NCBI RefSeq assembly: GCF_023703795.1
Contig: NZ_CP098518.1
Span: 3,286,001 to 3,350,000 of the forward strand
DNA from: Haloplanus sp. HW8-1
GTDB taxonomy: Archaea > Halobacteriota > Halobacteria > Halobacteriales > Haloferacaceae
Length of the DNA: 64,000 nt
Reading direction: 5' to 3'
Below, one piece after another: positions 10,773 through 39,201 of this stretch. The notes under the pieces are model-generated. The model had not been told where the DNA came from. It saw nothing but the letters and a program-made list of their open reading frames with translations, and did no database searches. A program made the translations under genes and the position numbers. The stretch's first letter is position 1. Each line of letters starts with the position of its first letter.

Positions 10773-11402
10773 ATGCCAGAGCGCACAGCCGTCGTACTCG
10801 CTGGCGGCCGGTCGACGCGGTTCGGCGACGCCGACAAGGCCGTCGCCGACCTCGCGGGGACGCCCATGATTCGACGGGTGGTCGACCGGGTCGCCCCCGC
10901 CGTCGACGCCGTCGTGATCAACTGCCGGGGCGCCCAGGTGCCGGCGATCCGGGAGGCGCTCGCCGGCGTGGCCGTCCCCGTCGCGTTCGCGGAGGACGAC
11001 TACCCCGACGAGGGGCCGATGGCGGGTATGGCGACGGGGCTCCGGGCCGTCGAGAGCGAGTACGCCTTCGTCGTCGCCTGCGACATGCCTTTCGTCGAGG
11101 CCGACTTCGTGGCGCACCTGTTCGAGCGCGCAGCGGGCCACGACGCCGCCGTTCCGCGGCCGGAGCAGTGGTTCGAGACCACGCACGCGGTCTACCGGGC
11201 GCCCGCGATGGCTGACGCCTGCGAGGCGGCCCTGTCGGCGGGCGAGGAGCGAATCGTCGCGCCACTGTTCGATCTGGACTTCGTCGTCGTCGACGCCGCG
11301 GCGGTACGGGAACACGGCCACCCCCGCACGTTCGAGAACTGCAACACGCGGGCGGACTTCGTCGACGCCGAGCGGCGGCTGGAGGAGTCTAGTAGCGATT
11401 GA
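10773..11402 (+). CDS. mobA: Molybdenum cofactor guanylyltransferase
   Basis: 209 aa. VVLAGGRSTRFGDADKA is the nucleotidyltransferase signature (LAGGxSxRxGxxK), and VVACDMPFVE carries the metal-binding Asp. MobA links GMP to molybdopterin. The gene ends ...SSSD-stop, and the AGC GAT TGA lies in the left terminal repeat of the inverted-repeat element at 11393-11463. It is convergent with yqeC, which suggests a molybdenum-related locus. Confidence 0.92.
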   Translation: MPERTAVVLAGGRSTRFGDADKAVADLAGTPMIRRVVDRVAPAVDAVVINCRGAQVPAIREALAGVAVPVAFAEDDYPDEGPMAGMATGLRAVESEYAFVVACDMPFVEADFVAHLFERAAGHDAAVPRPEQWFETTHAVYRAPAMADACEAALSAGEERIVAPLFDLDFVVVDAAAVREHGHPRTFENCNTRADFVDAERRLEESSSD

Positions 11403-11463
11403 AACTGGTTGCCCAGCCTATCGGACGCCGTACTGCGATCGGCTGTGTGACTCTCAATCGCTA
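11393..11463. repeat. 71-bp inverted-repeat element, copy 1
   Basis: Perfect 10-bp terminal inverted repeats TAGCGATTGA (11393-11402) and TCAATCGCTA (11454-11463) enclose a second stem, CAGCCTATCG (11414-11423) with CGATCGGCTG (11436-11445), 9 of 10 paired, and a 12-base loop GACGCCGTACTG. A related copy on the other strand is at 38954-39023. The mobA stop lies in the left arm and the yqeC stop in the right arm. Candidates are a MITE/PATE-like palindromic element, a bidirectional terminator, or a structured 3' UTR. Confidence 0.85.
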
Positions 11464-12191
11464 CGACGGTCGACCACGTCGACGACCGACGGGTCGGCCA
11501 TCCGCGCGAGGACGACCCGCGGCACGTCGGCACGCGCGTGGACGGCCGCCGCGATCTCGCGGCCCGTCGCCGCTAGGTCGTCGTCGTCGACCATGTTGAT
11601 CAGCGGAACGACCGTCGCCGTCGGCGGCACGCGCTTGTGCCCGCCCAGTCGGTGGGCGAGGACGGTCCCGACGTCCTCGGGGGTGATCGGCTCGCCGAGC
11701 GAACGACCGGTGAGGTCGGCCACCCGCTCCGGTCGATGGACGTTGTCGTCGGCGAGGGGGGCGCCGACGACCCGGGCGCTCGCGACGGGGATCACGGTGT
11801 CGGCGGTCGCGGGAATCTGTGGCTCGCGCTCGTTCGGTGCCTTCAGGAGCCGAGTTCGTGCCCCATCGGCTTTCGCCAGCACCGTTCCGTGGCCGGGCGT
11901 GGCCCGGATGGCGGTGACGGTCTCGCGGTCGTAGCCGAGGTAGCGATCCGACCGTTCCCGTTCGGGGACGAGTCCGAGCGGCCACTCGGTCGCGTCGCGG
12001 AGTGTGCCCACGGGGTCGCGCGTGACGCGCACGTCGGCGACGTGGTCGTCGAAGATGGGGATGCGAACCGTCGCGGTCACGACGGCCCGCTCCAGCCGGT
12101 CCGCGAGGGCGTACAGCGTCGTCTTCTTGCCGCCGGCGCCGACGACGCAGACGAGTTTCGCGTCCGCCGACAGCGCCTCGATGAGATCCAT
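11454..12191 (-). CDS. yqeC: YqeC-like selenium/molybdenum cofactor protein
   Basis: 245 aa. CVVGAGGKKTTLYALAD is a P-loop (GxxGxKT), and KADGARTRLLKAP plus TVVPLINMVDD are typical of the YqeC family, linked to selenium-dependent molybdenum hydroxylases. A role in molybdoenzyme cofactor insertion or modification is inferred from the family and from convergent mobA. The stop TGA (AGC GAT TGA) lies in the right terminal repeat of the 11393-11463 element. No selenium genes such as selD are evident here. Confidence 0.82.
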   Translation of the reverse strand: MDLIEALSADAKLVCVVGAGGKKTTLYALADRLERAVVTATVRIPIFDDHVADVRVTRDPVGTLRDATEWPLGLVPERERSDRYLGYDRETVTAIRATPGHGTVLAKADGARTRLLKAPNEREPQIPATADTVIPVASARVVGAPLADDNVHRPERVADLTGRSLGEPITPEDVGTVLAHRLGGHKRVPPTATVVPLINMVDDDDLAATGREIAAAVHARADVPRVVLARMADPSVVDVVDRRSD

Positions 12192-38900: not shown

Positions 38901-38953
38901 GGTCCGACTGTGGACCCGCGGGAAGTAAGCGTGTCGGGAGTGGCCTTATAGTC

Positions 38954-39023
38954 GCGATCGAACGTCATTGCACAGCTGATCGCAGTACGGCGTCCGATCG
39001 GCTGGGCAAACCGTTTCAATCGC
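38954..39023. repeat. 70-bp inverted-repeat element, copy 2
   Basis: On the minus strand it begins GCGATTGAAACGG (from 39023) and ends TTCGATCGC (38954), giving near-perfect terminal inverted repeats. The inner stem (CAGCCGATCG with CGATCAGCTG, 9 of 10 paired) and the 12-base loop GACGCCGTACTG match copy 1 at 11393-11463; about 49 of the first 53 bases are identical. The 39016-39201 gene ends GGC GAT TGA inside the repeat, as mobA and yqeC do in copy 1. Confidence 0.85.
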
Positions 39024-39201
39024 CACGATATTCTCCGCCGACGGCGACGAGGTAGGCGACGACGATGGCGACGACGGCGCCCGGGAGGAATCCCCTGAGT
39101 AGCGTGTACGGGTCCGGCGGCGAGGTGAGGGCGACGACCACGACCACGACAGCGACGAGGGCGGCCGCGACGGCGACGAACCGGAACGGATCGGGCCTCA
39201 C
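39016..39201 (-). CDS. Small two-helix membrane protein
   Basis: 61 aa from GTG 39201. Two hydrophobic helices ([18 protein letters not shown] and [17 protein letters not shown]). The GTG overlaps the TGA of the HAD hydrolase gene, so translation is likely coupled. Ends YRGD-stop within the copy-2 repeat. No family recognised. Confidence 0.7.

Follow-up and report, generated by a model that had tools for sequence, protein, structure and literature searches.

Introduction

IS630 is reported to prefer the TA of CTAG as its target (Tenzen and Ohtsubo 1991, as cited in PMC2170065), and ISY100, a member of the same family, duplicates the TA (PMC2170065). RUP of Streptococcus pneumoniae (107 bp, IS630-Spn1) is a short, non-coding element that has IS630-like terminal inverted repeats, inserts at TA and is predicted to form a long hairpin (PMC2229807, PMC3049150), and the Correia elements of Neisseria are small, with terminal inverted repeats, TA termini and a stem-loop. 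Among haloarchaeal elements, the small mobile repeats (SMRs) of Haloquadratum walsbyi, such as HqIRS41 (80 bp), are non-coding, about 80-110 bp long and have prominent inverted repeats (PMC3119063); they have been described without a target duplication or a related transposon. PATEs are short dispersed palindromic mobile DNA of haloarchaea that lacks terminal inverted repeats and derives from IS605-type elements (PMC3119063). In the REP/RAYT system, the GTAG-tagged REP is a hairpin of 20-40 bp that has its GTAG tag, unpaired, at one end, and the enzyme is a tyrosine transposase (PMC3733652).

Here we describe a repeat that lies between two convergent genes in a 64,000-nucleotide stretch of the Haloplanus sp. 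HW8-1 genome, referred to below as the window. We conclude, with a probability of about 0.82, that it is a MITE of the IS630/Tc1-mariner type, non-autonomous and moved in trans. Our residual doubt concerns the mover and the empty sites that have TG or CA at their centre.

Results

The repeat in the window is a worn copy of a dispersed palindrome of fixed length, 86 bp, with the structure C-TA-[TAGTAGC...GCTACTA]-TA-G. The features of the locus and of the second copy in the window are as follows.

10773 to 11402, plus strand: MobA-like NTP transferase (PF12804), its last residues, SSSD, encoded by the element
11390 to 11464, minus strand: element remnant, 75 bp left, with the TA/TATA target-site ends lost and a 3-bp internal deletion (from alignment with 13 other host-genome copies and the empty site in same-genus relatives)
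11392 to 11402: outer arm GTAGCGATTGA, whose TGA at 11400-11402 now terminates the mobA-like gene as its stop codon
11414 to 11423: inner arm CAGCCTATCG
11424 to 11435: 12-nt centre (loop) GACGCCGTACTG, not conserved across the family
11436 to 11445: inner arm CGATCGGCTG
11454 to 11464: outer arm TCAATCGCTAC, whose minus-strand TGA at 11456-11454 terminates the YqeC-like gene as its stop codon
11454 to 12191, minus strand: YqeC-like protein (PF19842), its last residues, SD, encoded by the element
38946 to 39031, plus strand: second element copy, 86 bp, in the opposite orientation to the window copy

The initial annotation had recorded an inverted repeat with a double stem at 11393-11463, and this is real: the perfect arms TAGCGATTGA / TCAATCGCTA are present there, with pairing that extends one base further out, nine of ten positions are paired between the inner arms, and the loop is as it had been given. 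The related copy that had been noticed elsewhere in the window was also found, inverted and with a loop identical to that of the window copy. The fold of the window repeat is better than chance (z -4.1, 0/200 shuffles as good), and that of the intact family consensus has a z of -9.7. The true ends of the element had been missed, however, as intact copies are 86 bp long and run from CTATAGTAGC to GCTACTATAG. In most same-genus relatives the two convergent genes abut at this locus and the element is absent, while one relative (G002) has a diverged copy in the orthologous intergene. Both genes now stop inside the element, within its arms, the MobA-like product ending in ...SSSD-TGA and the YqeC-like product in ...SD-TGA. 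In another Haloplanus (L059, G001), the intergene orthologous to 11390-11464 is occupied by an unrelated palindrome (GGAGGAGCGTTCGTAAGCCACTGCCGGACC...) in about four tandem copies, from which it appears that the site attracts several repeat families.

The length of the element is the same in 182 of 190 end-matched copies, and it is 86 bp in 40/40 copies of a sample fetched regardless of their ends, which is too short for a transposase; coding capacity is absent. Conservation was measured over 37 representatives below 88% identity, all of which have long terminal inverted repeats. In these, TATAGTAGC shows no variation on one side and next to none on the other, alongside G15, C28, G61 and C72, and asymmetric boxes, AAGTCATTGC on one side and AACTGTTTRC on the other, distinguish left from right. 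The conserved 12-nt loop of the initial annotation turned out to be an artefact of comparing two copies, since the loop is where conservation across the family is lowest, its columns carrying about 0.3-1.2 bits of information compared with 2.0 at the termini. In one further copy (L229:7877) the centre of the 86-bp element is interrupted by another GC-rich palindrome (CCGCGGTTCTCGCTCACGTCGCTCACTCCGAACCGCG).

From the supposedly unusual loop it had been proposed that the repeat is a functional RNA or a protein-binding site, and these conservation values do not support the proposal. An RNA conserved for its structure (a small RNA, a terminator or a processing hairpin) would account for the co-variation of the arms, where 86% of cells are paired over 33 pairs, 14 of them changed on both sides, and where the covariation is 0.243 compared with 0.138 after shuffling and at most 0.08 after sliding. 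It would also fit the slight surplus of G-T mispairs (78) relative to A-C ones (51), which is too weak as a test of strand. Terminal inverted repeats that are recognised by a single transposase co-vary in any case, and the co-variation therefore does not demonstrate an RNA. The orthologous locus being empty in most congeners, the invariant parts being the termini and no Rfam family matching the window, we regard a functional RNA as very improbable.

The host genome contains at least 23 copies, 14 detected by BLAST and at least nine more by a covariance model. By BLAST, copies occur in 29 of 147 relatives, and by the covariance model in 116 of 292 sampled Halobacteria genomes (about 40%), representing 33 of 76 genera; those genomes of genus g14 that were listed for that model had no copy. 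A pattern scan of GTDB genomes gave, among the matches listed, almost exclusively named haloarchaea, including Natrinema, Halobellus, Haloferax, Halogeometricum, Natrialba and Haloplanus. Large plasmids carry the element densely as well, at 253 places across 53 records. Among the best of the plasmid places listed, just one overlapped an annotated feature, the rest being free of annotation at the match or belonging to records without any. No match was obtained in the phage collection, and the full element was present in none of the viral contigs with pattern matches that were fetched. One bacterial match (L189), considered as a family member, looks like chance, being 93 bp long with an unrelated interior. 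A literature search by sequence string returned nothing relevant. The initial annotation had named an absence of further copies in relatives and of compensatory changes as the mark of chance similarity or local duplication; copies are abundant and the arms co-vary. A chance palindrome or a recent local duplication, for which the earlier two-copy comparison was the only argument, is refuted by the copies in this genome and the hundreds elsewhere, and we give it practically no weight. The suggestion of a dispersed palindromic, MITE-like mobile element is thus borne out.

At 19 further loci with Natrinema or Haloplanus copies, the empty site mostly consists of four bases in the place of the element, the tetramers being CTAG, TTAG, TTAA, CTAC, CTGG, CCAG and others. 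The centre of each was read from the nearest relative, and the Natrinema flank query for empty sites covered 3614 of 4800 bases. TA is central in 10 of the 19 empty sites, compared with 1.3% TA in the window (p about 1e-14). The other nine have TG/CA or another centre, and nearly all filled sites have TA at both ends; in Natrinema, the empty site of most relatives reads TG or CA rather than TA, whereas the filled sites are nearly always TA. We read the TG/CA empty sites as cases where CTAG arose by one transition before the insertion, the alternative being a relaxed target whose original dinucleotide was lost. Where the empty sites of relatives are non-TA, the TA would have been duplicated. 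Tandem copies share a single CTATAG, as would result if one copy inserted into the terminal TA of another. The tetramer CTAG occurs 12 times in the 64-kb window, compared with 236 CTGG and 295 CCAG, and this avoidance of CTAG bears on the target preference.

Where a coding frame, as judged by GC3, reaches the insertion, the target TA lies at the first codon position, within the stop codon, in 31 of 39 cases (p 4e-9); both flanks are coding in eight copies. CTAG consists of two overlapping convergent stop codons. Many insertions fall exactly at stops because TA is rare in GC-rich genes outside stop codons and CTAG is where convergent stops abut.

The TG/CA empty sites had also raised models involving a serine or tyrosine recombinase or a Y1 (IS200) enzyme, from which unequal junctions, or junctions where no bases are lost, would be expected; these models were set aside once IS630 ends were matched. 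A search for DDE_3 identified IS630 group A in a Haloplanus genome, G003, with ends beginning CTATAGTAACCGTTAGAA and CTATAGTAGGCATTAGAAGTAATTGCT; copies of this 1.06-kb IS630, with ends separated by 1059 bp, are spread over the class and carry two overlapping ORFs, one with HTH and one with DDE_3. The ends of the element align with those of group A in register at 23/29 and 20/29 positions, a similarity short of identity that was reached in 0 of 20,000 shuffles, and they fit group A better than three other IS630 groups of G003. The difference between left and right at positions 19-22 is parallel in the two, GTCA vs CTGT in the element and GTAA vs CTTT in the IS ends. The element and IS group A also show a moderate association across genomes, with an odds ratio of 3.4 (p 5e-5, uncorrected for kinship). 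G003 itself contains about 20 IS630 copies in at least four groups, together with at least 14 identical or near-identical 86-bp elements, which are a recent burst.

IS group A is absent from the window's own genome and from most Haloplanus, and DDE_3 had no match in G006, G151 and 16 of 25 other element-rich genomes, some of which hold near-identical copies. An autonomous copy with the element's ends was found neither in about 190 neighbourhoods nor, by pattern, in two burst genomes, which yielded truncations only, and no full-length IS with exactly these ends was found. With many carriers devoid of IS630, the mover may have been lost after a burst, may have come from outside or may be something else. 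It could be that the element is what the Haloquadratum authors call an SMR, mobilised by an enzyme other than IS630 that would put TA...TA in place of the central YR of C-YR-G without a target duplication. Besides the carriers lacking IS630, it would suit the empty sites that are often CTGG or CCAG and, once filled, have TA at both ends, and a fixed 86 bp, which is odd for a MITE. Elements might then persist and burst in genomes devoid of IS630 through a different host or mobile enzyme (C-YR-G to C-TA...TA-G), with the 86 bp held by a constraint on how the two ends are brought together. We consider such a mover unlikely, as the ends and those of IS630 group A have left- and right-specific boxes in common that align in register, the empty sites are very strongly enriched in TA, and a single transition separates CTAG from either CTGG or CCAG.

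A second palindromic family in Haloplanus, of about 82 bp (ATACGG...CCGTAT; L072:318-404, L028:1571-1655, L030:1423-1503 and L025:2740-2821), has the inner boxes AAGTCATTAC / ACTGTTTAC in common with the 86-bp element, and one of its copies is nested within such an element. Its ends are similar to those of IS630 group D of G003, a less strong instance of the same pattern of matching ends.

Discussion

Our results suggest that this MITE is moved by an IS630 transposase, or was in the past. The element would amount to little beyond two transposon ends in a head-to-head arrangement (TAGTAGC...GCTACTA, 80 bp), in which the left end and the right end of the 1.06-kb haloarchaeal IS630 can be recognised. 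An IS630-family transposase acting in trans would bind both ends, excise the element and paste it at a TA, preferably that of C-TA-G, with duplication of the TA. Insertions would then often fall at a stop-codon TA between convergent genes, and at the window locus both genes now end at in-frame stops of the element itself.

This explanation accounts for a class-wide haloarchaeal repeat that lacks annotation in the records examined, and a model and exact ends are now supplied for its annotation. The scarcity of TA in GC-rich coding DNA, except at stop codons, provides a concrete reason for its siting between convergent genes. The case is also a warning that arm covariation in dispersed palindromes is by itself no evidence of an RNA.

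Among the known systems, PATEs had been offered as a candidate kind, and they resemble the element in being short, dispersed and palindromic mobile DNA of haloarchaea; its long terminal inverted repeats rule out this identity. The element does not match the GTAG-tagged REP either, since it is 86 bp long and its GTAG is paired and present at both ends. The Correia elements share its small size, terminal inverted repeats, TA termini and stem-loop and differ in host domain and size, a likeness that is drawn from descriptions and not from sequences. RUP is alike in all the features given above, but the element differs from it in its fixed 86 bp, its GC-rich interior, its class-wide presence in Halobacteria, its frequent occurrence without any IS630 in the same genome and its strong bias to stop-codon TA. 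The SMRs, compared by description only, are similar in host, length, inverted repeats and lack of coding capacity. Their terminal inverted repeats are defined as unrelated to any transposon, whereas the ends of the element are related to IS630 group A. The element is thus a new family of a familiar kind, ordinary in kind and wide in reach, and set apart from the SMRs by their description.
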